A model generated the notes under the pieces. That model had not been told where the DNA came from. It did not search any database and saw only the letters and a program-made list of their open reading frames with translations. This document shows positions 35,699-61,513 of a stretch of DNA of 64,000 bases, in pieces. The translations under genes were made by a program, and so were the position numbers. The stretch lies in contig NZ_CP012332.1 of the NCBI RefSeq assembly GCF_001263175.1, positions 1 to 64,000 on the forward strand, read 5' to 3'. Origin of the DNA: Vulgatibacter incomptus. GTDB lineage: Bacteria > Myxococcota > Myxococcia > Myxococcales > Vulgatibacteraceae. How positions within the stretch are numbered: position 1 is the stretch's first letter; each line of letters starts with the position of its first letter.

Positions 35699-35733
35699 GA
35701 TGCCCTCTGCTTTGCTGCTATGGGAGGGCTGGG

Positions 35734-41759: not shown

Positions 41760-42094
41760 GGTTGCTCCTCACGTATGAAGCCCGTCGGCGCAGGGGGATT
41801 TCGGAGAATGCTATCTGCGAAACGCCGAGATGTCATTCCAGCGGCTCGGCGAGCCCAGGAACGAGACGGCCCCACCGACGTCGCATGCCGGCATCTCTAG
41901 AGAACGCTTTGTCCACCGAGTTTTCGTGGTTCATTGCAATGCATTGAAATCACGAGTGGTTTTATCGTGCTGACGTGCCCTTGCGCGATAGTTTGAGTCG
42001 AAGTCTTTGCAATACCAATCAAATCTCCTATCCTCCCGCCGCGCGAAGCCGCTCCTGCGATCGGCTTCATCGATTGGCGAGAGGATTTCGAAAA
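41760..42094. promoter_or_regulatory. Intergenic region with candidate promoter of lipoprotein B
   Basis: This is AT-richer than its surroundings. TTGCAA (42007-42012), 16 bases, then TATCCT (42029-42034) matches the promoter layout before A, D and E. It lies about 60 bases before the B start, whose ribosome-binding site is GAGAGGA (about 42079-42085). No small gene is evident in the rest. Confidence 0.45.
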
Positions 42095-45000
42095 ATGAGA
42101 TTTTTTGGATCGGCTTGGTTGCCGAGCACTGCACGGTCGTGGACGCTGGGCGCCCTGATCGCGTTTTCGCTCGGCGCCTGCGGCGGCAAGACGTCGCCCG
42201 GTAACGAGGGCGGCACCGGCGGCGAGGCCACTGGCGGCACCGGCGGCGAGGCGACGGGCGGCAGCGGTGGCGAGGCTGCTGGCGGCACCGGCGGCGAGGC
42301 CACTGGCGGCAGCGGCGGCGAGGCGACCGGCGGCACCGGCGGCGAGGCGACCGGCGGCAGCGGGGGCGAGGCGACCGGCGGCAGCGGTGGCGAGGGAACT
42401 GGCGGCGCAGGCGGGGAGGGCGCCGGCGGAAGCGGCGGTGACGACGGCGAGGGGCCCGGCGGCTCCGGCGGCGGCGATCCCTGGCAGTGCCATGAGGACG
42501 CCGACTGCGCCGACTTCGCGCTCGAGCAGTGCGTGGTCGCCGTGTGCAACGACGGCCGGTACGAGGGCGAGGTAGGCTCCTGCGTCCTGCTCCAGGCCGA
42601 GGCCGGCACGCCCTGCGACGACGGTCTCTTCTGCACCGTCGGCGACGTCTGCGACGAGGCGGGCGCCTGCGTCGGTACCGCTCCGAACGACTGCGGCCTC
42701 GAGGGCAACGCCTGCGCCGATGTCGTCTGCGACGAGCTGACGGCGACGTGCAACCTGATCCCGGTCGCCGACGGCACGAGCTGCCAGGGCGAGGACGGCG
42801 ATCTCTGCGAGGTCGCCGCATGCCAGGCGGGCCAGTGCGTCAACGCGCCGAAGGATTGCTCGGCGGCAGGCTCGTCCTGCGTGGTCGGCGTCTGCAACCC
42901 GATCGACGGCGCCTGCGAGGCCGAGCCCCTCGACGCCGGCAGCTCCTGTGCGCTGGCCGGACTCTCCCAGTGCGAGGTCGCTGCGTGCGACGGCGCCGGC
43001 GCCTGCCTGGCGCAGCCGCTGGCCGCAGGTTCGTTCTGCTCGCTCGCGGGCCTCGGCCAGTGCCAGACCGCCGCCTGCGACGGCGCCGGCGCGTGTGAGC
43101 CCGCCGACCTGCCCGACGGCAGCTCCTGCGACGACGGAAATGACTGCACCGTCGCGGACGCCTGCTCGGCCGGCTCGTGCACCGGTACCTTCGACGAGGC
43201 GACTTGCGTCGCCGCGGCGACGATCTACAGCGAGGACTTCGAGTCCTGCGACGCCTCCGGTTGGACCTTCGCCGGCGCATGGGAGTGCGGCACGCCCAAC
43301 TCGGGCCCGAACGGAGCGCGCTCGGGCACCGGCGTCTTCGCGACCAAGCTGAACGGCAATTACCCGGACAACGCCACCTTCGCCGACAACACGGCCACCT
43401 CGCCCGTCATCGACCTCGGCAAGGCGTCCGATCCGATCCTCTCCTTCTGGGCGTGGGTCCACACGGAGGGCGCGAGCACGCTCTACGACGGCTTCAACGT
43501 CAAGATCCGCCGCGCCGGTGAGGACGACTTCGTCCTCGCGGCGGCGAAGGCTCCTCCCTACCGGGCGGTGATCTCCGGCACCGGCGAGTGGGCCTGGGGC
43601 GGCCTGCTGTCCGCTGAGGGCTGGAAGCGCTACACGTTGGATCTCTCCCCGTACGCCGGCGATCAGGTCGAGCTCCGCTTCGCCTTCCGCAGCGACGGCT
43701 CCACCAACTACGCCGGCGTCTACGTCGACGACATCGAGGTCGCCGAGCGATTCGTCGAGCCGGTCGCGATCGTGCGCAAGAGCCTCCCCGTCGCCATCGT
43801 CGGCCATCCCTTCGCCGCGAGGATCAGCGCCGAAGCGAGCTCGACCGCGACCTGGAGCATCGTCGACGGAGCGAACGCCGGCTGGCTCGGCATCGATCCG
43901 GCGACCGGAATGCTGAGCGGGGTCCCGGCCGCCGAGGACGCGGGAACGGCCTCCATCACGGTGCGTGTGCAGGAGTCAAACCACCCGTCGAACTTCGCGG
44001 AGAAGACCTTCTCCATCGTCATCCGCGACTACGGCGCCTACCTGAACTACTTCTCCGACCTCGAGCCCGACTGCGAGGGGTGGACCCTCCGCGGCGACTG
44101 GGAGTGCGGGACGCCCACCTCCGGTCCCGGCGAGGCATGGTCGGGTACGGCGAGCCTCGCGACCCGCCTGCACACGGACTACAACCCGAACCAGCGCTGG
44201 GACACGGCCACCGCCGACTCGCCCGAGATCGATCTGACCGCCGCCCTCCACCCGCGCCTCATCTTCCGCGCGTGGGTCCACACCGAAGGCACGGCGGACG
44301 GCTTCCACGTCGAGGCGAGCAAGGACGGAACCACGTTCGCGCTGCTCACCGACGTCGACCCGCCCTACCTGAACACCAACAACTACGGCCCGGGTTGGGC
44401 CGGGGACCGCAGCGCCGAGGGGTGGCGGGAGTACACCGTCGATCTCGCCAAGTACGCGGGCGAGGTCCTCACACTCCGGTTCGCGTTCGCCAGCGACGGC
44501 TCGGGCCAGAGGTCGGGCGTCTTCATCGACGACGTCACCATCACCGAGGCGGCCCTGATCCCGCTCGGGATCGTCCCCACCGGCGCCTCCGACGCCTTCG
44601 TCGACGCGCCCTACACGGCGCTCCCGAGGAGGACTGGCGGCTCGAACCACCCGGTCTGGGCCATCGTCGACGGGACGAACCACGACTGGCTCTCGATCGA
44701 TCCGGCGACCGGCGCGCTCTCGGGCACGCCGACCGTGTCCAACCTCGGCGCTGTCAGCGTGACGATCCGGGTCGCCGAGCCTTCGCGGCCCTCGAACTTC
44801 GCCGATGCGGAGCTCCACTTCTCCGTGGAATCCCCGACCTACGGCGTCTACTTCCAGGACGACTTCTCGTCCTGCGAGCGGGGCTGGTTCCGCCGCGCCG
44901 ACTGGCAGTGCGGAACGCCGACCGCGGTCGGACCTGCGACCTGCCATTCGGCGACCGGCTGCCTCTCCACCAATCTCTCGGGCGATTACAGCGACGGGCT

Positions 45001-48000
45001 CGCGTGGAACGACGCGGTGGCCGACTCGCCCGTGATCGACCTCACCCGCGCCGGCGAGCCCATGCTCACCTTCTGGGCGTGGGTCCACACCGAGGCGGCG
45101 AACTATGACGCCTTCAACGTCAAGGCGAGCGCCGACGGCGGCGTGACCTGGCGGCAGCTCACCGAGGTCAGCCCCGCGTACGACGGGACGGCGGCGAATG
45201 AGCTCGGCTGGGGCGGCGACCGCAGCGCGAAGGGCTGGGAGCGCTACTCCGCCAACCTCTCTGCCTACGCCGGCGAGCGGCTCATGCTGCGCTTCGCGTT
45301 CCGCAGCGACTCCTCCGGTACCCGGCCCGGCGTCTACATCGACGACGTGCTGGTCACGGAGAAGTTCGGGGATCAGGTGGAGATCGGGACCGGCGCCCAC
45401 CTCGCGGACGCCTACGTCGGACGCGCGTACACGATGCCCCTCCGCAAGGACCACGGGTCGAGCCGGTCGACGTGGACCATCGTGTCCGGCGCTCCCGCCT
45501 GGCTGCAGGTCGACCCGGCGACGGGCGAGCTCTACGGCACGCCTTCCGAGGACGACCTCGGGACGGTGAGCCTGACCGTGCGGGTCGAGGAGCCGCTCAA
45601 CCCGGTGAACTTCGCGGAGAAGGCGCTCACCTTCGACGTGGTCACCCTCGAGCCGGGCCTGCTCTTCACCGATGGCTTCGAGCCCTGCACCGCCGGCTGG
45701 GATCTCCGCGGCGACTGGCAGTGCGGGACGCCGACACAGGTCGGCCCCGCCGCCTGCCATGGCGGCACGAGCTGCATCGGCACGAACCTGAGCGGCAACT
45801 ACAACAAGAATCAGTCCTACGCGACGACCACCGCGGACTCCCCCTGGATCGACCTCGACCAGACCGCCGAGCCCCGTCTCGTCTTCTGGGCCTGGGTCAA
45901 CACCCAGGGGCCAACGAACGCCGGCTTCAACGTCGCGGTCAGCACCGACGGGCGGACCTTCTCGCAGCTCACCGCGGTCAGCCCGGCGTATTCCGCCACC
46001 GTCAACGGACAGCAGGCCTGGTCCGGCGACATGTCGGCGCTCGGCTGGCGCCGCTTCGACGCGGACCTCTCCGCCTTCGCCGGCGAACAGGTCCGGATCC
46101 GCTTCGCCTTCGGCAGTGACTCCTCCTCCTCCACCAGGACCGGCGTCTACCTCGACGACGTCCAGGTGATCGAGGCAGCCCACGATCCGATCTCGATCGC
46201 GACCAGGACCCTGTTCACGGCCTTCGAAGGCAAGCCCTACGAGTTCCAGCTCGCGAAGTCCCGCGGCTCCGCCCAGGCGCGGTGGAGCATCGTCGGCGGC
46301 TCGAATTCCGGCTGGATGGTCGTCGATCCGGAGACGGGCCTCCTCTCCGGCGTGCCCACCGACGGTTCGGCCGGACCGGCGTCCGTCACCGTCCGGGTGC
46401 AGGAGTCGGCGGTCCCGACCAACTTCGCCGAGAAGACCCTCGGCTTCGACGTCGTCCGCCTCCTCCCGGGGCAGGTCCACGCGTCGGACTTCGAGGGCTG
46501 CCCGACGAGCTGGACCCTCGGCGGCGAGTGGGAGTGCGGGACGCCGTCCAACGTCGGTCCGTCGACCTGCCACTCGGGCACCAGCTGCCTCGCGACGCGG
46601 CTCGCTGGCAACTACAACAACAGCGCGTCCTACGCGGCCTCGATCGCGACCTCTCCCACGATCGATCTGTCGGGGGTGGCGGAGCCGATGGCCTCGTTCT
46701 GGATCTGGATGCACACCGAGGCGAACTACGACGGCTTCAACGTTCGGGTGAGCACCGACGGAGGCTCGACGTTCAGCGTGCTGAGCGACGTGTCCCCGGC
46801 CTACGGCGGGAACGTCGACAGCGTTCCGGCCTGGAGCGGCAACCAGTCCGGCGCGGGCTGGCAGCAATTCTCGGCCAACCTCGCGGCCTTCGAGGGCCAG
46901 CAGGTCAAGCTCCGGTTCGCCTTCCGCTCCGATGGCAGCACGAACTTCGCGGGCGTCTACATCGACGACGTCTCGATCTCGAGCCGCGCTGCGTTCCCCA
47001 TCTCCATCGTCGCCAGCAACCTCGCCGATGCCGTCCCGAACGTCCCCTACGAGGCGCGGTTCACCAAGACCGGCGGAACGCCAGCCGCGATCTGGACCAT
47101 GACCCCGATCGAGAACGCCGACTGGCTCTTCTTCGACCCCTCCACCCAGACGGTCTCGGGCGTCCCCACGAGCCAGAACGCCGGGCCGGTGCGCTTCTCC
47201 CTGCGCGCCCAGGAGCCGAGCCTCCCGGAGAACGTCGACGAGAAGACCTTCGTGTTCGCGGTGATCGGCGACCTCGCCGAAGGGACCTACTACGAGCAGA
47301 GCTTCGACGCGGGCAGCGGAGGCTGGACCCTCGCGGGAGATTGGCAGCACGGGACCCCGACCCGGGTGGGCCCGGCCTCCTGCCACTCCGGCGACGGATG
47401 CCTCGGCACGAAGCTCGACGGCAACTACACCAGGGGCCAGGGCTACGCACAGAACTACGTGGAGTCTCCGCCGATCGCCGTTCCGCCGGGCTCGGCGCCG
47501 GTGCTCACCTTCTGGGCGTGGGTCAGCACCAACAACCAGCACTACGACGGCTTCCAGGTCCGGATCCGGAAGGCGGGCGAGTCGACGCTGACCATCCCCA
47601 CGGACGTGGATCCGCCGTACTCGGGCGACACCAGCGGGGATCGGTCCTGGGGTGGCGAGCTCGAGCAGTTCGGCTGGCGCCGCTACTCGGTCGACCTCTC
47701 GCGCTGGGCAGGCGAAGCCATCCACGTGCGGTTCGCGTTCTATGCCTCGAGCTCCAGCTCCCCCACGGCGCCGGGCGTCTACGTGGATGACGTGCAGGTC
47801 CGGGAGGCCACCGCGATCGAGCCCTCCATCACGGTCGCCCCCGTCGGCGACGCGTGGGTGGACGTCCCCTTCACCCATCGTATGCAGAAGACGGGTGGCC
47901 CCAACGATGCGTACTGGTCCATCGTGGGCGGCGAAAACTTCGACTGGCTGAGCATCGACCCGGAGACCGGCGTCCTCACCGGCATCCCGACCGCCGCCGC

Positions 48001-48625
48001 GATCGGTCGCGTGAGCGTCGTCGTCAAGGCGGAGGACGTCCTGGAGTGGTCGCTGACGGACGAGGTCGAGCTCGTGTTCGAGGTGAGCGACGCGAACGTC
48101 TACTACGCCGCGGACTTCGAGGGCGTGTGCCCCAACGGCTGGTCGCTCGTCGGCGACTGGGAGTGCGGGAGGCCGACCACCGTGGGTCCGTCGAACACCT
48201 GGAGCGGTAGCCAGTGCCTGGCGACCGGGATGTCGATGAACTACCTGCCCAACATGTCGTACGCGACCTCCCACGCCACCTCGCCCGAGATCGACCTCAC
48301 GGGTGCGGTGCACCCGGTGGCGTGGTTCCGCCTCTGGGTCTGGACCTGGGGCGGATCGGACGACGGTTCGAACTTCACGGTCAGCACCAACGGCGGCCTG
48401 TCGTTCCAGGCGGTCCCCGACGTCTCGCCGGGACCGAAGCTCACGGTGAAGAGCCAGGCGGCGTGGGGTGGCAACCACTCCGGGGCCGGCTGGAGGCTCG
48501 TCCGTGCCGACCTCTCGGCCTTCGCTGGTCATGTGGTGAAGCTGCGCTTCGCCGACGCCAGCGACGGGTCGCTCGAGTTCGCCGGCACCTACGTCGACGA
48601 GCTCATCGTCGTCGAAGCCGACTGA
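42095..48625 (+). CDS. Giant surface lipoprotein B (seven jelly-roll/Ig units)
   Basis: A 2176-aa paralogue of lipoprotein A, on the opposite strand. The signal sequence ends in lipobox LGAC (Cys29). The stalk uses the same 8-residue unit as A (GGTGGEAT), about ten copies. A Cys-rich region follows to about 43200 (DDGLFCTVGDVCDEAGACVG). Seven modules start near 43228, 44047, 44850, 45661, 46480, 47290 and 48103, a period of about 810 bases. He_PIG-like Ig modules (WSIVDGxNxGWLxIDPATG) separate them. Unit 1 matches A unit 1 (GFNVKIRRAGEDDF), unit 6 matches A unit 5 (NYVESPPIAVPPG), and unit 7 matches the last unit of A (CPNGW, AWGG, GWRLVRADL). The extra unit is therefore in the middle. Function unknown; surface adhesion or ligand binding is inferred. 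Confidence 0.85.
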   Translation: MRFFGSAWLPSTARSWTLGALIAFSLGACGGKTSPGNEGGTGGEATGGTGGEATGGSGGEAAGGTGGEATGGSGGEATGGTGGEATGGSGGEATGGSGGEGTGGAGGEGAGGSGGDDGEGPGGSGGGDPWQCHEDADCADFALEQCVVAVCNDGRYEGEVGSCVLLQAEAGTPCDDGLFCTVGDVCDEAGACVGTAPNDCGLEGNACADVVCDELTATCNLIPVADGTSCQGEDGDLCEVAACQAGQCVNAPKDCSAAGSSCVVGVCNPIDGACEAEPLDAGSSCALAGLSQCEVAACDGAGACLAQPLAAGSFCSLAGLGQCQTAACDGAGACEPADLPDGSSCDDGNDCTVADACSAGSCTGTFDEATCVAAATIYSEDFESCDASGWTFAGAWECGTPNSGPNGARSGTGVFATKLNGNYPDNATFADNTATSPVIDLGKASDPILSFWAWVHTEGASTLYDGFNVKIRRAGEDDFVLAAAKAPPYRAVISGTGEWAWGGLLSAEGWKRYTLDLSPYAGDQVELRFAFRSDGSTNYAGVYVDDIEVAERFVEPVAIVRKSLPVAIVGHPFAARISAEASSTATWSIVDGANAGWLGIDPATGMLSGVPAAEDAGTASITVRVQESNHPSNFAEKTFSIVIRDYGAYLNYFSDLEPDCEGWTLRGDWECGTPTSGPGEAWSGTASLATRLHTDYNPNQRWDTATADSPEIDLTAALHPRLIFRAWVHTEGTADGFHVEASKDGTTFALLTDVDPPYLNTNNYGPGWAGDRSAEGWREYTVDLAKYAGEVLTLRFAFASDGSGQRSGVFIDDVTITEAALIPLGIVPTGASDAFVDAPYTALPRRTGGSNHPVWAIVDGTNHDWLSIDPATGALSGTPTVSNLGAVSVTIRVAEPSRPSNFADAELHFSVESPTYGVYFQDDFSSCERGWFRRADWQCGTPTAVGPATCHSATGCLSTNLSGDYSDGLAWNDAVADSPVIDLTRAGEPMLTFWAWVHTEAANYDAFNVKASADGGVTWRQLTEVSPAYDGTAANELGWGGDRSAKGWERYSANLSAYAGERLMLRFAFRSDSSGTRPGVYIDDVLVTEKFGDQVEIGTGAHLADAYVGRAYTMPLRKDHGSSRSTWTIVSGAPAWLQVDPATGELYGTPSEDDLGTVSLTVRVEEPLNPVNFAEKALTFDVVTLEPGLLFTDGFEPCTAGWDLRGDWQCGTPTQVGPAACHGGTSCIGTNLSGNYNKNQSYATTTADSPWIDLDQTAEPRLVFWAWVNTQGPTNAGFNVAVSTDGRTFSQLTAVSPAYSATVNGQQAWSGDMSALGWRRFDADLSAFAGEQVRIRFAFGSDSSSSTRTGVYLDDVQVIEAAHDPISIATRTLFTAFEGKPYEFQLAKSRGSAQARWSIVGGSNSGWMVVDPETGLLSGVPTDGSAGPASVTVRVQESAVPTNFAEKTLGFDVVRLLPGQVHASDFEGCPTSWTLGGEWECGTPSNVGPSTCHSGTSCLATRLAGNYNNSASYAASIATSPTIDLSGVAEPMASFWIWMHTEANYDGFNVRVSTDGGSTFSVLSDVSPAYGGNVDSVPAWSGNQSGAGWQQFSANLAAFEGQQVKLRFAFRSDGSTNFAGVYIDDVSISSRAAFPISIVASNLADAVPNVPYEARFTKTGGTPAAIWTMTPIENADWLFFDPSTQTVSGVPTSQNAGPVRFSLRAQEPSLPENVDEKTFVFAVIGDLAEGTYYEQSFDAGSGGWTLAGDWQHGTPTRVGPASCHSGDGCLGTKLDGNYTRGQGYAQNYVESPPIAVPPGSAPVLTFWAWVSTNNQHYDGFQVRIRKAGESTLTIPTDVDPPYSGDTSGDRSWGGELEQFGWRRYSVDLSRWAGEAIHVRFAFYASSSSSPTAPGVYVDDVQVREATAIEPSITVAPVGDAWVDVPFTHRMQKTGGPNDAYWSIVGGENFDWLSIDPETGVLTGIPTAAAIGRVSVVVKAEDVLEWSLTDEVELVFEVSDANVYYAADFEGVCPNGWSLVGDWECGRPTTVGPSNTWSGSQCLATGMSMNYLPNMSYATSHATSPEIDLTGAVHPVAWFRLWVWTWGGSDDGSNFTVSTNGGLSFQAVPDVSPGPKLTVKSQAAWGGNHSGAGWRLVRADLSAFAGHVVKLRFADASDGSLEFAGTYVDELIVVEAD
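42208..42455 (+). repeat. 24-bp tandem repeats encoding the stalk of B
   Basis: About ten tandem 24-base units encoding GG(T/S/A)GGE(A/G)(T/A). Many units are identical over long stretches (GGCGGCGAGGC core), so copy number may vary between strains. Confidence 0.9.
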
Positions 48626-48678
48626 CGGCTTCGTGAAAGGGGCGCGCACACCCGTGCGCGTCCGCGCTTCACCCAAGG

Positions 48679-48713
48679 CGCCGCTCCCGCTACCAGGCGA
48701 GAGCGGCGTTTTT
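48679..48713 (+). terminator. Terminator of lipoprotein B
   Basis: CGCCGCTC pairs with GAGCGGCG around the intervening bases and is followed by five T residues. The same hairpin design (CGCCGCTC, loop, GGCGGCG, T-run, then GGGATCC) follows fossil C and lipoprotein D. Confidence 0.75.
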
Positions 48714-49207
48714 GGATCGGGGGATCCTTCTGGTCGCCGCCGTGCCCTGGGCGCGACGGGGCTCTTCCTTCACGCGCGCGCCTTCGAGGACCAGGCAGCC
48801 TTGCCGGATGCGCAACCTTGAAGGCGGCGATCTCCGAGCTCCTCCGGACCAGGTGGGCGACCGTTGCTCGAAGATCCTCAGAGGCGGTGGCGGGCAGCTA
48901 CCGGACGACGGCCCGGACGGGCCGTCGGGTGAACCACAGGGCGGGTCTATCGCCTCTACAGCGCCGAGGATCTGACGGTGCGGAAGAAGAAACGAAGCGC
49001 ATCGCCGCGCGGATTCGAACTGTGCCCCCGCTGCCAAGCTGAAGATCGACGATGGGTGGAACCGGTTCACTTTTGCCCAGCGTATTGCTCCCTCGACAAT
49101 CAGACGCCGACAGAGAAGGAAAAGGCCCACCGAGCTTACGCTACGAGTGGGCCAGTGATGGGAGTGGAAGGTCAGAGAATGCGTATTCTGCGATAGCCTT
49201 CCCGACG
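48714..49207 (+). pseudogene. Remnant of IS3-family transposase OrfB in a non-coding stretch
   Basis: At about 48926-49000 one frame gives GVNHR and the next gives RVYRLYSAEDLTVRKKKR, which matches the strongly conserved IS3-family (IS407/IS2-type) OrfB segment of the form N-x-KRVYRLY...LTVRRKKRKR. A one-base shift separates the two parts, and no catalytic residues remain. The rest of the stretch (the conserved GGGATCC tail of B at about 48719-48730, then unassigned sequence to 49207) shows no gene I can support. Confidence 0.5.
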
Positions 49208-50389
49208 TCAGGGCAAAGAGAACTCGACGAAGTTCACTTCCGATCCGTTGCTCTTGATGTATGCAATCGAATAGTTTTCCGTGTCGAAAGACGCCTGGAA
49301 GTTAGTGGGCGATTCCATTACATCGTCGACTACGTAGATCGGCTGGTTTTGCGGTTTTGGATCCCGGATGTCAGCCAGGAAAAGCACTGAGCCAGGATGC
49401 TTGTCGCACTTTCTCCCCTCGAAAATCACGTAGCTCGGTGCGGATCGATAGCCGTTCGTCGATGATCCTCCGAGGATCGGGTGATGAAAAGAAGAACAGC
49501 CGAGGTTCTCGACGAGGAGTCTTACCCCCAAAGTGCTTTTGTCAATCTTGCCGTCAGTGGCACGCCAGAGCGTTTCCCAATAGATCGCTCCGCTCTTGAC
49601 ATAGACAACAGTATCTCCAAAGACGTCGAGCTGGGAAGCGGGACCTGGAATTTTGGCTTTTTGGGGGGTGGGTTGATTGAAAATGCCGTCCGGGATCGTG
49701 AATCCCTCGATCATGATGTCATCGCCGGCTGGTGTTATTGCTGCGGTGATAGTGGGCGATTCTGCACTGGTCCCTTCGCCAAAAGACGTAATGCCAATTC
49801 TTTCGAGGGCTTTCGATCGTGGCTGATGAGGGCTCGGATTCGAATAGGGATACCAAGAAAGGAAGGGGTCCGGCGTTTGCGGTGCTGTCCAGAACACTTG
49901 CGCTTTGTAGGCGTCAACCGCAAACATGTCTGACAGTATCGCAAACGGAACGTCTGCATGGAGATTTGCATAGTTCACTGGATTTGCATCGTATGCGTCG
50001 CCATCCCAGTCTGGGAGGACGTCCGGATCAGAATCCATCCGGTCCAAGTTGGTGACCCAAGGTCGCCGGGCGTTCTCCTCGCAATCTGTCGCCATGAATG
50101 GCCCAGCGGCTCGGATCTGCGTTCCTTCGTGGAGATCCAACAGCCTCGATACGCCGGTCGATGTACTCCAAATTTTCGTGAAGCCGCAGTACGATCCTAC
50201 GTGGAAGTCTCCGTTCCACGATTGGCCGACTGCCACCGCGGAGTAGCCGGTCTTCAGCGTGCACTCCTGTGAAAGCTCGTTCGTGATCGGCAACGTGGGC
50301 AGCGGCGGAGCCGCGAAAGCCTTGAACCCCGGAGTCCCTGCCAAAATGAGAATTCCAGCCATCATTGCGTTGCGGAGGTAAGAGTGCAT
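49208..50389 (-). CDS. Secreted hypothetical protein, 393 aa, lower GC
   Basis: Family not recognised. ATG 50389 follows GGGAGA. The signal peptide MHSYLRNAMMAGILILAG, then TPGFKAFAA, predicts export. The mature chain is rich in aromatic residues and short beta-like strands, and has Cys in QECTLKTG, SYCGFTKIW, ATDCEENARR, NLGCSSFHH and GRKCDKHPG. Recurring segments such as LDVFGDTVVYVKSGAIYWET and SYVIFEGRK suggest a beta-propeller or similar sandwich, which is an inference. Third codon positions are visibly less GC-rich than in neighbouring genes, and transposase remnants flank it, so recent acquisition is likely. Confidence 0.65.
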   Translation of the reverse strand: MHSYLRNAMMAGILILAGTPGFKAFAAPPLPTLPITNELSQECTLKTGYSAVAVGQSWNGDFHVGSYCGFTKIWSTSTGVSRLLDLHEGTQIRAAGPFMATDCEENARRPWVTNLDRMDSDPDVLPDWDGDAYDANPVNYANLHADVPFAILSDMFAVDAYKAQVFWTAPQTPDPFLSWYPYSNPSPHQPRSKALERIGITSFGEGTSAESPTITAAITPAGDDIMIEGFTIPDGIFNQPTPQKAKIPGPASQLDVFGDTVVYVKSGAIYWETLWRATDGKIDKSTLGVRLLVENLGCSSFHHPILGGSSTNGYRSAPSYVIFEGRKCDKHPGSVLFLADIRDPKPQNQPIYVVDDVMESPTNFQASFDTENYSIAYIKSNGSEVNFVEFSLP

Positions 50390-51449
50390 TGGGTCTCCCT
50401 GAACGGTTTGGAGCGGGTGCATCATTCGGATGTTCGTCACTTCGGAAATGTGTTTGGCGGGACCTGCAAAGAGCGTCCCTGCGCTCGATCATGTCCTTTC
50501 GGCAGGATGAATTCGTCGGCCCTTGGCCACGAACTGGAAAATCGCAGGCCCACGCGACCGAACGGACGGTCTGCCTTGTACGTAGGAGCAGCAACACCTC
50601 CTGCTTTGCACCAATCGGGTTTGGCTGGCTGTCGTGCTCCAGGTCGAAGCCCGGCATCCCGCTTCCGCTTGGTTGACTAGCTCCGGCTCATGAGATGCCG
50701 TGGTTCCTAAGGCTTTCGGCGACCAGCGCGACCCTCTTTTCGGTTGCGACTGGCACGCCCCCGTCTCGTCAGGGTTCGGATGTCGATTCCCGGGGGAAGA
50801 CGACCGCTAGGCCAAGGCCGAGCTTCTTGACCTTGTTCGCGTTCCCGATCGGTCCTCGATGGGCCGCTGCATCGAGCGGATCGATCGAAGGCTCCTTTCG
50901 ATCGGCCGGCACCTTCCGTCCTCCGGGCGAATCGAGGCCTTCAACAACAACTTGGAGACGCAGCAACGTCGAGTACGAGGATGTCGCGACCATCGCCATT
51001 TCCTTTTCAACCTGCGATTTGCAACGCCGCCCTTCCGGTCGCCCTAGCGATCGCTCGCTTCTTCGCGCACGCCACGTCCCCTGCTTGGGCACCTGTCCCC
51101 ATTTGCCTACGGTGAAGGCTATCTCAACTTGTTCCTAAAGAAAAATTTCGCGCGTCGAATTTCTGTAGACATCCGATTTGTCAAGGGTTTCTGGCGGGAC
51201 CGGATTACAGCAGACGGTCGGACCTCAGGGGAACGATCGGGCCATGAAGTCACCCGCACGGACCTCGGGTTCGCGGGTGTCGACATTGCAGCTCTTTCGA
51301 GCTCCGCTTTGACCACGCCTTCCGTCGCGGAGCGGCGCCGAGAATGGCTTTGGTCTCGTTCCGCTCCGAACGCAAGGAGCCGAAGGTTGCCGCAGGCTTG
51401 CTGAACGCCTGCGCGTCCCCGGCCCACAAATGCGTGGACCCAATCGTGA
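50390..51449 (+). pseudogene. Intergenic stretch with ISL3-like transposase remnant
   Basis: At about 50859-51047 the plus strand reads SSGRIEAFNNNLETQQRRVR, then GCRDHRHFLFNLRFATPP, resembling the C-terminal GRIEAxNNxIKxxxRRxxG(F/Y)RDxxxF motif of ISL3-type transposases. It begins without the catalytic domain, so it is a fragment. The remaining sequence (50390-50850 and 51050-51449) gives no convincing gene on either strand. 51119-51190 is notably AT-rich. Confidence 0.5.
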
Positions 51450-51663
51450 CGCTCACGACGTCGACCCCGGCTGTTCGTTCACGGCCTCGGATGCGAGCGC
51501 CTGGGGCGGCGATCTGAGCGGTTCCCGGTTGCGGCTCTTCCGGGTCGAGCTGTTGATCTGCGCCGGACAGGTGCTGAAGCAGCGCTTCGCCGACGCCATC
51601 GATGGATCGCTCGAGTTCGCCGGGACCTACGTCGACGACCTCGTCGTCGCAGAAGTCGACTGA
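51450..51663 (+). pseudogene. C-terminal scrap of a giant lipoprotein (fossil C, part 1)
   Basis: The reading DVDPGCSFTASDASAWGGD, then VLKQRFADAIDGSLEFAG, then TYVDDLVVAEVD-stop aligns with the last about 65 residues of lipoprotein B (DVSPGPKLTVKSQAAWGGN, then FADASDGSLEFAG, then TYVDELIVVEAD). The downstream 50 bases (GTGAAAGGGGCGCGCACACC and on) are also nearly identical to those after B, up to GGCGCCG, where the match stops. It is therefore a duplicated B-type 3' end without a gene body. Confidence 0.8.
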
Positions 51664-52520
51664 CGGATTCGTGAAAGGGGCGCGCACACCCGTGCGCGCC
51701 CGCGCTTCACCTAAGGCGCCGCGTCGGGAAGCTCCCAAACGACTGCGGCCTCGAGGCTACCGACTGCAGCGAGGTCTCGTGCGACGAGCTGTCCGCGACC
51801 TGCTCTCTCATATTCGTAGCGGATGCTGAATACCTCCAGCACTGCCGTGGTGGGAGCTGGCGCGTACGTGGACGACCTGCTCGTCGAGCTGGCCTCTCAG
51901 GGTAACGATCCGTCGATCGTGGAGGACCTGCTGGCGGATGCCTACGTCGGTCTGCCCTACACGCAGCGGATGACCCGCACCCAGGGTCCTGTCTCGGTCA
52001 CGTGGAGCATCGTCGGCGGCCTCAACCACACGTGGCTCTCGATGGATTCGGCGTCCGGGGTTCTCACCGGAACTCCGTCCCTCGGCGATCTCGGGCCGGT
52101 CTCCGTCGTCGTTCGGGCCGAGGATCCGAGCGATCCTTCCGTCGGGGACGAGCGGGAGCTCGTGTTCGAGGTGAGCAGCGCTGCGATCTACTTCTCCACC
52201 GGCTTCGAGGACGCCTGTCCGAATGGCTGGACGCTCAGGGGCGACTGGGAATGCGGCACGCCCTCCTCGGTGGGGCCCTCGACGGCCTTCGGCGGCAACC
52301 AGAGCCTCGCCACGAAGATCGGCGGCAACTATTCGAACGACAGGTTGTACGCGAGCTCCAACGCGACCTCGCCGGAGATCGACCTGACGAGCGCCATCTC
52401 GCCGATCCTCTGGTTCCGGATGTGGACCGACACCGAGGGGCAGGTCTGGGATGGCGTCAACCTGAAGGTGTCGAGGAACGGTGGATCGTTCGATGTGCTC
52501 ACCGATGTCGCGCCCCCCCT

Positions 52521-52542
52521 GTGTCAGCGTAGTTGTCGCCTC
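52521..52542 (+). repeat. Left terminal inverted repeat of the IS
   Basis: Begins GTGTCAGCGTAGTTGTCGCC. It pairs with 54111-54132 in inverted orientation with two mismatches. Confidence 0.85.
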
Positions 52543-52591
52543 GTCGTGACAGCGTAGGTCGATCACGTAGGGGGCGAAGAGCAGGTTGGAG

Positions 52592-53104
52592 ATGGGTCGG
52601 ACTCCGTACTCCGAGGCGTTCAAGGCGAAGATGGTGGAGAAGCTTACGGGGCCGCACGCGATGTCGGCGACTGCGCTTGCAAGGCAGTCCGGGATTGCCC
52701 AGGCGACGCTCTCCCGTTGGCTGCTGGATGCGGGTAGGCTCGGCGTCAAGATGGACGACCGCGACGACAAGAGCACCCGCCAGTGGACCAGCGAGGAAAA
52801 GCTGCAGGTCCTGATCGAGACAGCGAGCTTGAGTGATGACGAGCTCGGCTCGTACCTCCGCCAGAGGGGACTGCACAAAGCCCAGTTCGATGAGTGGCGC
52901 GCAACTGCCGTCGCTAGCCTTGGGAGCGCAGCAGCGCGTCGTTCTGTTGGGCCTGATGCGAAGCGGGTTCGCGAGCTCGAGCGCGAGCTCAGGCGTAAGG
53001 AGAAGGCGCTCGCGGAGACCGCCGCGCTCCTCGTCCTCAAAAAAAAAGTGCAGGAGATCTGGGGGGACGAGGACGACGACACGGACGGGAAGAGCGGAAG
53101 ATGA
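52592..53104 (+). CDS. IS3-type transposase OrfA (helix-turn-helix protein)
   Basis: A 170-aa protein with an N-terminal helix-turn-helix of the IS3/IS911 kind (YSEAFKAKMVEKLTGP, then SATALARQSGIAQATLSRWL) that would bind the IS ends. It ends in an acidic, Lys-rich coiled coil (RVRELERELRRKEKALAETA). ATG 52592 is chosen over TTG 52586. A run of nine A (53039-53047) near its end is a typical slippery site for -1 frameshifting into orfB. The two genes also overlap by 4 nt (ATGA at 53101), so OrfB could be made separately. Confidence 0.85.
   Translation: MGRTPYSEAFKAKMVEKLTGPHAMSATALARQSGIAQATLSRWLLDAGRLGVKMDDRDDKSTRQWTSEEKLQVLIETASLSDDELGSYLRQRGLHKAQFDEWRATAVASLGSAAARRSVGPDAKRVRELERELRRKEKALAETAALLVLKKKVQEIWGDEDDDTDGKSGR
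53039..53048 (+). promoter_or_regulatory. Candidate -1 translational frameshift site
   Basis: A9G in the orfA frame. After a -1 slip the reading stays open through 53101 into orfB without a stop, which would give an OrfAB fusion transposase, as in other IS3 elements. Confidence 0.6.
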
Positions 53105-54105
53105 TCGTCGAGCTCCTCGACGAGGCTGTCGTCAGCGGCGCAAGATTCGAGAGAGCCTGCGAGGAGATTGGCTTGAGCGCTCGGTCGGTGCAGCGATGGC
53201 GCGCAGGAGCCGAGGACGATCTCCGATGTGGGCCGCTGACGGCGCCGCGAAACAAGCTCAGCGAGGCCGAGCAGCAGAGGATTCTCGCGCTCGTAACCTC
53301 GCCCAGGTTCCGGGATTTGTCGCCCGCGCAGATCGTTCCGCTCCTTGCGGATGAAGGCATCTACGTCGCTTCCGAGGCGACGATCTACCGCTTGCTCCGC
53401 AGGGAAAAGCTTCTGAAGCACCGGCAGGCGTCGCGGCCTCCGATGCGTCGCAAGCGGCCTGAGCATGTCGCCACCGGGCCGAACCAGGTCTGGGTTTGGG
53501 ACATCACGTATCTGCGGGGACCGATTCGCGGCATGTTCTTTCGCCTCTACACGATCCTCGATCTCTGGAGTCGGAAGGTAGTGGGCTGGGCCGTGCACGA
53601 GGTCGAGTCCGAGGAGCTTGCGAAGAAGCTCTTCGTCGAGACCTGCCGGCGTTTGGACGTCAATCCGAGCGGCATGGTGTTCCACGCCGACAACGGCGCG
53701 GCGATGAAGGGCCCGACCTTGCAGGCCACGCTTCAGGTGCTCGGCGTCGTCCCGTCGTTCAGCCGCCCCCGGGTGAGCAACGACAACGCATTCGCGGAGG
53801 CGCACTTCCGCACGATGAAGTATCGGCCTGACTTCCCGTCGAGGCCGTTCGCCTCGCTCACCGTGGCACGTGCCTGGGTCGAGAGTTTCGTCGCTTGGTA
53901 CAACGCGACGCACCTCCACAGTGGAATCCGGTTTGTAACTCCCGCGCAGCGCCATGCCGGACAGGACCTCGCGATTCTCGAGAAGCGTGCTGGCGTCTAT
54001 GCGGCTGCGCGCGAGCGATGGCCCGGACGCTGGAGCGGTTCTACGAGAAACTGGTCTCGCATTCAGCACGTAAGGCTCACGCCAGAGAGGACCGCGGCCG
54101 CATGA
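53101..54105 (+). CDS. IS3-type transposase OrfB (DDE integrase domain)
   Basis: A 334-aa catalytic protein. The N-terminal part has a second helix-turn-helix (FERACEEIGLSARSVQRWR) and the HTH_21-like SPAQIVPLLADEGIYVASEA segment. The rve catalytic core has Asp134 (VWVWDITYL), Asp197 (FHADNGAAMKG) and Glu233 (NDNAFAEAHFRTMKY). The D-to-E interval holds exactly 35 residues, the DD(35)E signature. The C-terminal AWVESFVAWYNATHLHSGIR is also typical. The frame appears intact, so the element could be active. Confidence 0.92.
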   Translation: MIVELLDEAVVSGARFERACEEIGLSARSVQRWRAGAEDDLRCGPLTAPRNKLSEAEQQRILALVTSPRFRDLSPAQIVPLLADEGIYVASEATIYRLLRREKLLKHRQASRPPMRRKRPEHVATGPNQVWVWDITYLRGPIRGMFFRLYTILDLWSRKVVGWAVHEVESEELAKKLFVETCRRLDVNPSGMVFHADNGAAMKGPTLQATLQVLGVVPSFSRPRVSNDNAFAEAHFRTMKYRPDFPSRPFASLTVARAWVESFVAWYNATHLHSGIRFVTPAQRHAGQDLAILEKRAGVYAAARERWPGRWSGSTRNWSRIQHVRLTPERTAAA

Positions 54106-54110
54106 CCGGG

Positions 54111-54132
54111 GAGGCGACAACTATGTTGACAC
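54111..54132 (-). repeat. Right terminal inverted repeat of the IS
   Basis: On the minus strand it reads GTGTCAACATAGTTGTCGCC, matching the left end at all but two positions. Confidence 0.85.
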
Positions 54133-54337
54133 TCACCGGCCCGGCAATCCGTTCACCATCTCGGACGAGCGCGCCTGGGGCGGCGATCACACCGGGGCGG
54201 GTTGGCGGCTCGTCCGGGTCGACCTGTCCGGCTACACCGGAGAAGTCGTGCAGCTCCAGTTCAGCAATGCCAGCGATGGCTCGGGCGTGTTCCCCGGCGT
54301 CTACATCGATGATCTCGTAATCGTCGAGGCCGACTGA

Positions 54338-54679
54338 CGGCTGATGCGGGCGCGCTGCCGGGCGCGCCTACGTTTCAAAACGCCGCTCTCGCTGTCAGCG
54401 AGGGCGGCGTTTTTTTGGATCGCGGGATCCCTCGTAGACGAACGACCGGCGGGAGGACTGAAAGTTCTTTGTCGAGAGGCCATTCCGTTTATACGCCAAG
54501 TATTTGTTTCATCTTGTTGGCAGTTTGCGGAAATTGCTGGAGAATTTCCCGCGGTCCCTACCTTCTGTGCTTGGCGGTCAAACATTCGGTCTTGCAGCTG
54601 GATGTAGTCCATCTATTGTCGACGACCATCGACATGAATCCCGGCTGCAAACGGTCGGGCTGGCTGGAGGATCTCGACG
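54338..54679 (+). promoter_or_regulatory. C-D spacer: terminator plus promoter of lipoprotein D
   Basis: This spacer is duplicated at 61166-61513 between D and E. It contains a hairpin (AACGCCGCTCTCGC / GCGAGGGCGGCGTT, 54378-54411) with a T-run to 54416, the GGGATCC landmark, and from 54491 a block of about 190 bases nearly repeated before E (ATACGCCAAGTATTTGTTTC at its start, GGAGGATCTCGACG just before the ATG). The candidate promoter is TTGCAG (54592-54597), 16 bases, TATTGT (54614-54619). No gene is seen. Confidence 0.7.
54377..54416 (+). terminator. Terminator after fossil C
   Basis: GC-rich stem AACGCCGCTCTCGC with GCGAGGGCGGCGTT (one mismatch) and seven T residues. Same design as the terminators after B and D. 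Confidence 0.85.
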
Positions 54680-57600
54680 ATGCGTACGTTGTTGTCGGCC
54701 TTATCGTTTCACCCCGTTCGATCATGGGCGCTGGCGATCCTGCTCGCGTTCTCCTTCGCGGCCTGTGGCAGCGGCGGCGATCCCGGCGAAGGCACAGGCG
54801 GTAGAGGTGGCGGGGGAGCCGGCGGCAACGCCGGCGAGGGTGGCAGCGGCGGCACAGCGGGCGAGGGCGGCAGCGGCGGCACCGCCGGCGAGGGCGGCAC
54901 CGGCGGCAGCGCCGGCCAGGGCGGCACGGGCGGCAGCGCCGGCGAGGGCGGCAGCGGCGGCGGAGATCCGACGGAATGCCACGACGACGCCGATTGCGCA
55001 GGGCTCGCAGTCGGCCAGTGCGTCGTCCCGCTCTGCAACGACGGAAGATTCGAGGGACCGATCGGCTCCTGCGTAGAGGTCGAGGCCGAGGTCGGAACCG
55101 CTTGTGACGACGGCCTCTTCTGCACCGTGGGCGACGCCTGCAACGAGGTAGGCGAGTGTGTCGGCACGATCCCCAACGACTGCGGCCTCGAGGCCACCGA
55201 CTGCAGCGAGGTCTCCTGCGACGAGCTGAACGCGAGCTGCTCCCTCGTTCCCGTCGCAGACGGCACGAGCTGCGAGGCCGGCGACCTCTGCGAGATCGCG
55301 GCCTGCGAAGCCGGCGAGTGCGTGGTCACGCCGAAGGACTGCTCCGCGATGGGATCGGCCTGTTCGGTCGGCAGCTGCGATCCGGTGGACGGCTCCTGCG
55401 TCGCGGAGCTCGTCGAAGCGGGCACGTCGTGCTCGACCGACGAGACCGGGCAGTGCCGGTTGGCCACCTGCGACGGAGCGGGCGCCTGTGTCACGGAGCC
55501 TCTCGACGCGGGCACGTCGTGCTCGATCCCGGGCCTCGGCCAGTGCCAGGTCGCTGCCTGTGACGGCGATGGTGCCTGCGCCGCAGAGCCCCTCCCCGCC
55601 GGGACGTCGTGCTCGCTCGGCGGCCTCGGGCAGTGCCAGTTCGCCGCTTGCGATTCGGCCGGCGCGTGCGCGCCGCAGAACGTGGACGACCGTACCGCTT
55701 GCGACGACGGCAACCGGTGCACGGTCGCGGATGCTTGTGCGGCAGGCTCCTGCATCGGCACGTACGACGGGCCTGCATGTCTGGCAGCAGCGACCTACTA
55801 CCTCGAGGGCTTCGAGGACTGCGGCAGCTCCGGCTGGACCTTCGCGGGACAGTGGGAGTGCGGGACGCCGGCATCCGGTCCGAACCGGGCCCGCACCGGC
55901 ACCGGCGTCTTCGCGACGAACCTCGCGGGAAACTACGACGACTACGCGGAATTCGATTCCTCGATCGCTACGTCGCCGTCCATCGATCTCGGCAACGCGT
56001 CGAGCCCGGTCCTCACCTTCTGGGCGTGGGTTGACACCGAAGGCTCGTCGACCCTCTATGACGGATTCAACGTCAAGATCCGCCGGTCCGGCCAGACCAA
56101 CTTCACCCTGGCGACTGCGGTGACGCCCCCGTACAGGAGCTCGATCGGCACGCCCAGCGAGATGGCCTGGGGCGGCTATTGGGCGGACCTTGGGTGGAGG
56201 CCGTACTCCGTCGATCTGAGCGCGTACGCGGGGGATTCGATCGAGGTGCGGTTCGCGTTCCGCTCCGATAGCGGCACGAACGCCGCCGGCGTGTACGTCG
56301 ACGATCTCTCGATCACGGAGGCGAACGCGGCTCCGCTCGTGGTTGGAGATCTGGCGCTCCCTTCGGTCCTGTACACGGGCCGTTCCTTCTCCGCTCCGCT
56401 CGCGCTGGGGGCAGGGTCATCGGACGTCTCCTGGAGCATCGTCGAGGGCGAGAACCACGGCTGGCTCGACGTCGACGCGTCCACGGGGGTGGTGTCCGGT
56501 ACGCCGTGGTCTAGCGACGTCGGCCCCGTCTCGATCACCGTCCGGGCCACGTCGAATGAGTTCCCGACCCACTATGCGGAAAGAACGTTCTCGACGAGGG
56601 TGGTCGACCTCGGCTCGAACCTCTTCTACTTCAGCGATTTCGAGTCGGATTGCTCGGAGTGGGCGCTCTCGGGCGACTGGGAATGCGGCGTGCCCTCTAA
56701 CGTCGGACCCGCTGCTCCGTACTCCGGCCGGAACGTCCTCGCGACCGGGCTCGATTCGAACTACAGCGATAACCAGGACTACGATACGTCCACCGCGACC
56801 TCGCCCGCGATCGACCTCACGCAGGCGAGCCAGCCACGCCTTCGCTTCTGGGCGTGGATGAAGACCGAGGCGGGCTACGACGCCTTCAACGTCAAAGTCA
56901 GCACCGACGGGACCGACTTCACGCTGCTGACCGGAGTCGAGCCGCCGTACACGGAGACGATCGACGACGAGCTGGCCTGGGCGGGCGACCTCTCGTCGAA
57001 CGGCTGGTACCCGATCGAGGTGGATCTGGGCGCCTACGTCGGCGAGACCATCACCCTGCGCTTCGCCTTCCGCAGCGACGGCGGCACCAGCTACGACGGC
57101 GTCTACATCGACGACATCGCGATCGTCGAGGCGGCCGCCGATCCCATATCCATCGTGGCCAACGGCCTGCCCGATGCCAACCTGGGAGCCTCCTACTTCG
57201 CGGTCCTCGGGAAGCACGGCGGATCGAACGACTCGCTGTGGAGCATCATCGGCGGGACGAACCACGAGTGGCTCTCGATCGATCCCGCGACCGGCGTCCT
57301 CTCGGGGACTCCGGCCGCGTCGAACGAGGGACCGGTCCAGGTGAGCGTTCGCGTCGAAGAGGAGTCGATGCCTTCGAACTTCGCCGTCGCGGACTTCGAA
57401 TTCGAGGTCGCGGATGCTCCAACCGGTACGTACCTGGTCGACGACTTCGAGTCCTGTTCCCGGGGCTGGACCTTCAGGTCGGACTGGCAGTGCGGCACCC
57501 CGAGCGGGAACGGGCCGACCTGCCGCTCCGGAGCCAATTGCCTCGTGACCAACCTCACGGGCAACTACCACGACAACCTCGCCTGGGCGACCACCACGGC

Positions 57601-60600
57601 CGACTCCCCGACGATCGACTTGTCGAACGCCGATGAGCCGATGCTCCAGTTCTGGGCCTGGGTCCACACCGAGGGCCCGAGCTGGGATGTATTCAACGTA
57701 AAGGCCAGCACCGATGGCGGCAGGACCTGGACCCTCCTCACCGGCGTGACGCCCGACTTCGATGGGAGCGCCGGCGGCGAGAGCGGATGGGGCGGCGATC
57801 GATCGGAGGAGGGCTGGGTGCCGTACGCGGTGGATCTCTCCAGCTTCGCCGGTCAGCGGATCCTTCTCCGGTTCGCCTTCCGCACCGACGGCGGCGGGAA
57901 CCGGCCCGGCATCTACATCGACGACCTGTCGGTGGTGGAGCGGTACCGGGATCCGCTCTCGATCCTCGATCCCGCAGAGCTCGGCAGGACGTTCGTGGGC
58001 CAGCCGTTCCTCTACAATCCCTCCAGGACCGGAGGCTCCACGGCGGCGGTCTGGTCCCTCGAAGACGCTCCCGCGTGGCTCCAGATCGATCCTGCGACGG
58101 GCGCCCTGTCCGGGACGGCTTCGGAGGGCGACCTCGGGACCAACGCCTTCACCCTCCGAGTGGAGGAGCCTCAGAACCCTGAGAACTTCGCGGAGAGGTC
58201 GGTTCGAGTGGAGGTCATTCAGCTCGAGCCCGGCCAGTTCGCCGATTTCGACTTCGACGGGACCGTCAACGGTTGGACGCTCGCCGGTGAGTGGGAGTGG
58301 GGCACGCCGTCCAATGTCGGTCCGTCGAGCTGCCACTCGGGCAGCGGCTGCATCGCGACCCGGATCGCCGGCGAATACGAGAACTACGCTTCGTACGACA
58401 CGTCGACGGCGACCTCGCCGCCGATCGCCCTGACCGGCGCAATCGAGCCGACGATCACGTTCTGGGCATGGGTCCACACCGAGTCGGGGTACGACGCCTT
58501 CAACCTGAAGGTGAGCACGGACGGAGGCGCCACCTTTGCGCTGTTGGAGGACGTCAGCCCCTCCTACGACGGAACGGTCGACGACGAGCTGTCGTGGTAC
58601 GGCGACAGGTCCAGCCTCGGCTGGCAGCGGTTCCAGGCTCGGCTCCCGAGCGCGTATGCGAACGAGACGATCCAGCTCCGCTTCGCCTTCCGATCCGATA
58701 GGAGCGGCACCTACCCCGGTGTGTACATCGACGATCTCAAGGTCGAGGAGCCTTGGTTCGATCCGGTCGCGATCATCACTTCGTACCTTCCCAACGGCTT
58801 CCCGAACCTGCCCTGGGTCGGCGCGTTGGCGAAGTCCGGAGGCACGGACGCCGCCGTCTGGAGCATCGTGAGCGGTCCTTCGTGGATGCAGATCGACGCT
58901 CGGACCGGAGTCCTGACCGGGACCCCGCCGAATCTCGGCGCCGAAACCGTCACCGTCCGGGTGGAGGAGACCTCCCGTCCCGAGAACTTCGCGGAGAGAA
59001 CCTTCACCTTCGGCATCTTCGACCCCCCGACCGCTTCCTACTTCGAAGCCGATTTCACGGCAGCCGGCGGCTGGACCGTGGCAGGCGAGTGGGAGCGTGG
59101 CGTGGCGACGAGCGGCCCGGGTGCCTGCCGCTCGGGTGGCGAATGCATCGCCACGAGGCTCGCGGGCGACTACCACTCGAACGCCTCGTTCTCGACCTCG
59201 ATCGCGACCTCTCCGACCATCGATCTCTCCGAGGCGGTGGCGCCGCAGGTCTCCTTCTGGGGCTGGATGGAGACGGAATCCTGCTGCGACGGCTTCAACC
59301 TGAAGATCAGCGTCGACGGCGGCCCCTTCAACCTCTTGACCGCCGTGTCCCCGGCCTACAACAAGACGTTGGACGATCAGCCGAGCTGGTCCGGCTCGAC
59401 GGCGGGGTGGATGCGGTTCACCGCCGACCTCGGCGCCTATGCGGGCCACCAGATTGCGCTGCGCTTCGCATTCCGCTCGGACTACAGCAACGAATACGCC
59501 GGCATCTACATCGACGATCTGGTCGTGCAGACCAGGGGCCTCGAGGCGCTGTCGATATACGCCCTCGACCTCCCGGCGCGGCTGCCCGTTGGCGTTCCGC
59601 TCTCGTCGCGATTCGGGCAAGACGGTGGGACCGCCAGCTCGATCTGGACGTTCACCCCATTGGAGAACGCGTCCTGGCTCACCTTCGATCCCGCCGCACG
59701 GACGGTCTCGGGCACTCCCGCCGAAGCCGACGCGGGACCGGTGTCGTTCACGCTCCGCGTCGAGGAGCCCGCGTTCCCCTCGAACTTCGCCGAGGAGACC
59801 TTCAGCTTCGATGTCGTTTCCCTCGCCTCGGGCGTCTCGTTCCTCGAAGACTTCGAGGGCGGCGACGGGTGGACGCTCCGAGGCGACTGGGAGATCGGAA
59901 CGCCCTCCAACGTGGGGCCGGCATCGTGCCACTCGGGCACGAGCTGCCTCGCGACCAAGCTCGACCGGGTCGCTACGGACGGGCTCTCGCTCACCGAGAA
60001 CTACGTGGAATCTCCGCTCATCGTCGTTCCGGCCGGAGCGCCGTCCAAGCTCACCTTCTGGGCATGGATCGAGACCTCCAACGCCCGGTACTCCTGGTTC
60101 CAGGCTCAGATCCTGCGGCTCGGAGAGTCGACCTACCGAGTCCCCTCCGCCGCAGCGGTCTCGCCGGCCTACGTGAACTCCGAGAACAACGGCGCATGGG
60201 GTGGCGATCTGAGCCAGCTCGGGTGGCGGAAGTACTCGATCGATTTGTCGGCCTATACAGGCCAGACGGTTCAGGTGGCGTTCATGCTGGATACCTCCAG
60301 CAGCGCGGGAGTCGGCGCCTACGTGGACGACGTGGTCGTCGAGCTGGCCTCCCAGGCCAGCGAGCCGTCGATCGTGGAGGACCTGCTGGCGGATGCCTAC
60401 GTCGGCGTGCCCTACACCCAGCGGATGACCCGCACCCAGGGGCCGCCCTCCGTCATCTGGAGCATCGTCGGCGGCTCCAACCACTTGTGGCTCTCGATCG
60501 ATCCGGCCTCCGGTGTGCTCACCGGTACGCCGACCTTCGGCGACCTCGGGCCGGTCTCGGTCGTCGTCCGGGCGGAGGATCCGAGCGATCCTTCCGCTGG

Positions 60601-61165: not shown

Positions 61166-61513
61166 CGCGAGCATGACGGTGCGCCTCCGAGCGCGCCCTC
61201 GTATCGAAAAAGGCGCCGCTCCCGCTGACAGCGCGGGCGGCGCTTTTTTTGATCGGGGGATCCTGCACCGACGAACGGCTGGCGGGACCACTGCAAGGTC
61301 CTTCTCGAGTGGTCAGGCTGTTGATACGCCAAGTATTTGTTTCATCTTACTGGCATCCTTCGGGAATCACTGATGAATATCTCCTTTCTTTGATCCCTTG
61401 TGATTGAGGGTCAAACGTTTGGTCTTGCAGTTGGTTGAAGTCGATCTATTGTCGACGACCATTCACATGAAACCCGGCTTCATGTCGGTCGGGCTGGCTG
61501 GAGGATCTCGACG
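61166..61513 (+). promoter_or_regulatory. D-E spacer: terminator plus promoter of lipoprotein E
   Basis: A copy of the C-D spacer (54338-54679) with many substitutions but the same order of elements: hairpin with T-run, GATCGGGGGATCC, a GACGAACG(G/A)C(T/C)GGCGGGA stretch, the ATACGCCAAGTATTTGTTTC block from 61324, and TTGCAG (61425-61430), 16 bases, TATTGT (61447-61452). The run before the start, GGCTGGAGGATCTCGACG, is identical to that before D. No gene is seen. Confidence 0.7.
61213..61250 (+). terminator. Terminator of lipoprotein D
   Basis: GCGCCGCTCCCGC and GCGCGGGCGGCGC form a GC-rich stem around TGACA, followed by seven T residues (61244-61250). Confidence 0.85.

Follow-up and report, generated by a model that had tools for sequence, protein, structure and literature searches.

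The window analysed here, a stretch of 64,000 nucleotides, is the start of a single contig of 4,350,553 bases from a soil myxobacterium. Its right-hand part is taken up by an array of giant lipoprotein-like genes. Six such genes, with 2035-2223 codons each and with repeated domains, lie in tandem at 41975-64000 of the window and 61514-87794 of the contig (G000:C1). A relative with 1860 codons was seen on the minus strand at 30116-35698.

The gap between lipoprotein genes A and B

In the array, gene A (41975-48625) has 2216 codons and gene B (54680-61165) has 2161; the two are separated by 6,054 bp, compared to 348, 339, 182 and 161 bp in the next four gaps of the array; these sizes were computed from the longest ATG/GTG ORFs, and true starts may enlarge some of them. 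The last domain of gene B, used as a query, had a match at E <= 1e-10 in five out of the order's 145 genomes, its own genome included. The following features were found in the gap.

48731..51465, strand not assigned: low-GC stretch with no detected similarity to lipoprotein genes
48929..49010, plus strand: plausible IS3-type OrfB scrap, frameshifted, read by eye (plasmid blastn, shuffles)
49208..50389, minus strand: gene of a 393-aa orphan protein, ATG at 50389; GTG at 50440 open too
50859..51047, plus strand: C-terminal scrap of an ISL3-family transposase (PF01610, NCBIfam transpos_ISL3, genome profile search)
51466..51722, plus strand: remnant of a lipoprotein gene 3' end (blastn against the window)
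51721..51809, plus strand: remnant of a lipoprotein gene 5' part (91% to 62040-62127, 89% to 55160-55246)
51823..52515, plus strand: remnant of a lipoprotein gene 3' part (87% to 60284-60970)
52521..54132, plus strand: complete IS3-family element (OrfA 52586-53104, OrfB 53101-54105)
54139..54433, plus strand: continuation of the interrupted lipoprotein remnant, with a terminator-like hairpin (blastn against the window)

In a blastn search against the window, similarity to the lipoprotein gene ends ceased near 48730 and resumed at 51466. A tblastx comparison gave numerous short pieces that look like chance matches, and these were left out of account. The low-GC stretch begins directly past the terminator-like end of gene A, and its right edge is the first lipoprotein remnant. 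Rfam gave nothing at the gathering score in 48000-55000. Between 48600 and 51500 we found no promoter (0.6 expected) and four terminator-like sites, compared to 2.9 expected.

The lipoprotein pieces from 51466 onward follow each other in a non-native order: a 3' end, a 5' piece and a 3' part. Within the first piece, 51533-51722 was 86% identical to 48495-48684, and 51466-51709 was 70% identical to 54140-54377; the first 67 bases were matched at 70% only, to 54140 onward. The last remnant is interrupted by the IS3 element, which sits inside it. Its continuation was 80% identical to 60967-61532, in a match that extends to 54698. The original prediction had ended the island at 51449, which was too early: the lipoprotein debris (51466-54340) and the complete IS3 element bring the end to about 54340. 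The disturbed zone is wider than had been described and occupies the whole gap.

We observed that the element at 52521-54132 has the features of IS3-family insertion sequences: an OrfA HTH domain (PF01527), an OrfB integrase core (PF00665) and inverted ends (22 nt, 91% complementary). It is complete, with two ORFs, and scored 185.5 bits against NF033516 (cut-off 160). Inspection by eye showed no clear target duplication. The genome has six copies, the other five at 99% identity, and the family must therefore have been active recently. One copy contains a TGA within the OrfB match (G000:C1 1410664-1411536).

The orphan gene, its paralog and its composition

The minus-strand ORF of the low-GC stretch spans 49208-50440, with 410 codons counted from the GTG and 393 from the ATG at 50389. 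The translated N-terminus is signal-like, of the Sec type by eye, and ends AFA-AP. The 393-aa exported protein of the original prediction was thus recovered as an ORF, with export a putative property read from its N-terminus.

A paralog was found in the same genome at G000:C1 1390673-1391721 (about 1.39 Mb), with a GC content of 0.534. The search matched it in three pieces within 1390700-1391718, the longest with an E-value of 7e-48. Its frame is broken, with two overlapping ORFs in different frames (8674-9195 and 9174-9722 of locus L005). The two proteins had identical residues at 167 of 336 aligned positions; all five cysteines were aligned (5/5), and the AFA-A/V-P junction ('AFA-xP') is common to both. 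Out of the 336 codons, 81 were identical, 86 had synonymous differences and 169 had residue differences, while mismatches at codon positions 1, 2 and 3 numbered 111, 105 and 208. The estimates of dN were 0.41 (NG86) and 0.43 (LWL85), with dS undefined (NG86) or 2.2 (LWL85). Such conservation in frame means that the orphan has been a constrained protein-coding gene. Judging from this comparison, the ORF is a real gene, and its two copies diverged long ago.

The base composition of the gene is unusual for this genome. In 500-base windows GC was 0.52-0.56 over 49000-50249, rising to 0.58-0.62 beyond it as far as about 51500, and it stayed at 0.52-0.62 across most of 48731-51465. For the 1,233-base ORF stretch GC was 0.545, compared to a background mean of 0.6815 (SD 0.0349, z -3.9). 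The background was drawn from 20 evenly spaced samples of 20 kb each (400,000 bases in total, including 7,500 N) and comprised 3,673 N-free windows as long as the ORF stretch; the runs of N, in sampled loci L011 and L019, were excluded from the counts. As few as 3 background windows (0.08%) were as low in GC, all in locus L024, where the eight lowest-GC windows were all located and where a glycosyltransferase-like gene was read by eye. The description of this DNA as visibly less GC-rich than its neighbours was correct (54.5% vs 68.2%, SD 3.5, in sampled genome DNA), and a composition deviating from that of the host genome is one of the marks of a genomic island.

The GC3 value of the ORF was 0.626 vs 0.895 in 123 background ORFs, a contrast that is overstated, as this set, used for GC3 and codon adaptation, was pre-filtered (GC3 > 0.8, GC2 < 0.6). 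Among 208 unfiltered ORFs taken longest first, GC was as low in 1 and GC3 in 31. For the 25 of these 31 that were listed, GC1 was at least 0.79 in 20, and they resemble wrong-frame ORFs.

Another mark of an island, sporadic presence among relatives, was observed as well. A protein search over 145 genomes of the order found only the own genome (0/144 others), and a profile search gave the same result for the class (147 genomes) and for the phylum (195 genomes, 0/194 others); the sets overlap. The genomes listed include no second member of the genus and one of the family (G144, 92% complete), which had no match; among them, no relative had the same gene at the same place with ordinary composition.

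The other searches were similarly empty. Plasmids and phages had no match to the protein. Short exact peptide patterns, which miss distant homologs, matched in 3 and 27 stretches of GTDB genome contigs and in 1, 24 and 21 stretches of viral contigs, and no stretch encoded a relative. Plasmids, phages, phylum genomes and these pattern scans thus yielded no relative from a possible donor lineage. Pfam, NCBIfam and PHROGs had no family for the protein, and Pfam none for the C-terminal halves of the orphan and the paralog. Among PDB sequences only 9lhr_A appeared, with non-significant E-values of 0.71 and 1.3.

The paralog has transposase remnants beside it, with matches to Nterm_IS4, DUF772, IstB and Mu-transpos_C_2; these are remnants of an IS4 N-terminus and of a DUF772 transposase, together with IS21-type genes that are broken. 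A tRNA-Arg gene is located about 1.6 kb upstream (L005 7039-7115). By blastn the two sites are alike within the gene only, bar one 22-base and one 29-base match (E 0.53). What the sites have in common is an IS-scarred location, not their flanks. Beside the transposase remnants, at L005 10136-10673, there is also a short tandem repeat with several open frames, which read as Ala/His, Ala/Leu or Ala/Trp runs.

Transposase remnants and the origin of the gene

An ISL3-like C-terminal fragment had been proposed at about 50859-51047, and the profile searches point the same way. PF01610 (DDE_Tnp_ISL3) matched with E 1.8e-4 and 21.8 bits, a short match just below the 23-bit cut-off, covering positions 193-238 of the 240 in the profile. 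The six-frame read gave E 0.0026 for PF01610, NCBIfam transpos_ISL3 gave E 0.0038, and the genome profile search found the scrap again at 21 bits, below the cut-off. The likeness to ISL3-family transposases lies in this profile match; the difference is that we have a C-terminal scrap only, below the curated cut-off, and that element ends were not found.

On the other side of the gene, the IS3-type OrfB fragment proposed at about 48926-49000 is plausible but weak. A distant blastn search against plasmids gave 8 weak records, 6 of which overlap 48929-48986 or its right part (E 0.3), while the best E-value (0.09) belongs to a different part of the query, where the hit is to an unrelated gene. For two of the six overlapping records the frame around the match was read, and by its motifs it resembles IS3 OrfB. 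The protein-level score of the scrap was reached by dinucleotide shuffles 0/1000 and 1/1000 times. On the other hand, the scrap had no Pfam match in six frames at E <= 0.5, was absent from the 13 NF033516 matches of the genome, and ranked second in a scan of 364 window stretches (63, with the stretch at 35351 first). The stretch in question, 35351-35701, scored 70 against the IS3 OrfB frame, perhaps because of an Arg-rich composition. By eye, the scrap RVYRLYSAEDLTVRKKK is unlike the intact OrfB of 52521-54132 (IYRLLRREKLLKHR at the like place), and it would therefore come from another IS3 type.

With respect to mobility genes and flanking repeats of its own, the low-GC stretch has transposase scraps only, and the repeats found to bracket the gene are no more than short, imperfect ones, among them a 17-nt pair at 82% (48776-48792 and 50851-50867); 20 of 25 direct families were listed. 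The DNA of 50440-51450 matched 7 plasmid records with E from 0.02 to 0.9, in unrelated genes or where no genes are annotated, and the right flank of the gene matched no other DNA of the genome.

We think that the orphan is probably a lineage-restricted accessory gene that was horizontally transferred from a lower-GC source and now resides in a recombination-prone and IS-prone gap of the array. This reading is favored by the low GC, the intact frame, the constraint seen with the paralog and the absence from the searched relatives. It is also favored by a good transposase scrap and a plausible one, the lipoprotein debris and the adjoining multi-copy IS3 element; the site of the paralog is likewise IS-scarred. 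Since no donor or outside relative was found, the transfer is deduced from composition and absence. The gene would have entered from the lower-GC source, activity of IS elements together with recombination between repeats may have opened and eroded the A-B gap, and the gene would persist in sites that tolerate insertions. The transposase scraps would then be bystanders and not parts of the gene's own transposon. The earlier reading of this DNA as acquired material beside the array is thus supported by the composition, the absence from relatives, the scraps and the oversized gap; what does not stand is the notion of the scraps as the ends of one gene-carrying element.

A less probable alternative, though one to be reckoned with, is a lineage-specific AT-rich family, inherited vertically or born here, whose low GC would reflect its own history in gene-poor gaps. 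Both copies are AT-rich despite synonymous saturation, and no outside relative was found in the order, class, phylum, plasmids, phages or pattern scans. Moreover, the genus is represented by one genome among those listed, which leaves room for a vertically kept AT-rich gene. However, both copies lie among transposase remnants, GC is this low in just 0.08% of the sampled windows, and G144, the sole genome of the same family, had no match. Saturation in two copies that are both AT-rich is explained roughly as well by a standing AT-rich gene, or by two separate entries, as by a single transfer. Taken together, the evidence leans to import over a long-resident AT-rich orphan.

That the gene was a passenger of one transposon, with the two scraps as its ends, is very improbable, and this reading was rejected. 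The scraps do lie on both sides of the gene, and the 17-nt pair mentioned above is inverted and brackets it. Yet the scraps come from different IS families, and pairs as short and imperfect as this recur many times across that stretch, where 22 inverted pairs were counted. The paralog has other IS families as neighbors (IS4, a DUF772 transposase, IS21), and the right flank lacks a second DNA match in the genome. Even less credible is a spurious ORF in decayed DNA, which would agree with the missing family match in Pfam, NCBIfam and PHROGs but not with a paralog conserved in frame, the excess of third-position differences and the E-value of 7e-48.

The locus is comparable to IS-scarred islands with orphan cargo in its low GC, its transposase scraps, a gene absent from relatives and the debris of neighbor genes. 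It differs from them in having a single cargo gene, and neither an integrase nor attachment repeats were found; a tRNA gene lies near the paralog, while there is none in the window. The gap illustrates, clearly and on a small scale, how a space between giant lipoprotein-like genes in tandem gathers IS elements, debris of genes and an orphan. The locus has the look of ordinary acquired or accessory DNA and does not speak directly to any long-standing question; its modest interest comes from a protein for which the searches gave no relative outside this genome.

Predicted export and fold of the orphan protein

From the N-terminal sequence we infer that the protein would be exported via the Sec route. 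As a two-copy family with no detected relative, the orphan is a candidate for structural work. It is conceivable, though doubtful, that the orphan is the founder of a new family, made up of secreted proteins with five cysteines, restricted to this lineage and placed by old transfers into IS-rich spots, with a fold or function undescribed so far.

The AlphaFold model had a mean pLDDT of 38.6 (three rows), and the model of the C-terminal half, which is all-beta and of low confidence, had 50.7 (two rows). A Foldseek search of the PDB with the C-terminal-half model found 575 matches with E <= 10, not one of which reached E <= 0.001. Internal repeats were not detected in a crude test, where the best self-match was equalled or exceeded in 279 of 300 shuffles. 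The orphan therefore differs from secreted beta-propellers (WD40, TolB and olfactomedin-like folds) in having no significant fold match, no sequence family match and no detected internal repeats; the likeness is in the all-beta C-terminal half of the low-confidence model. Many of the 50 Foldseek entries listed are, by their names, presumably propellers (WD40, clathrin terminal domain, olfactomedin, RCC1). The model weakly suggests a beta-rich, perhaps beta-propeller-like and disulfide-bearing protein, which might serve in binding or as a scaffold at or outside the cell envelope.
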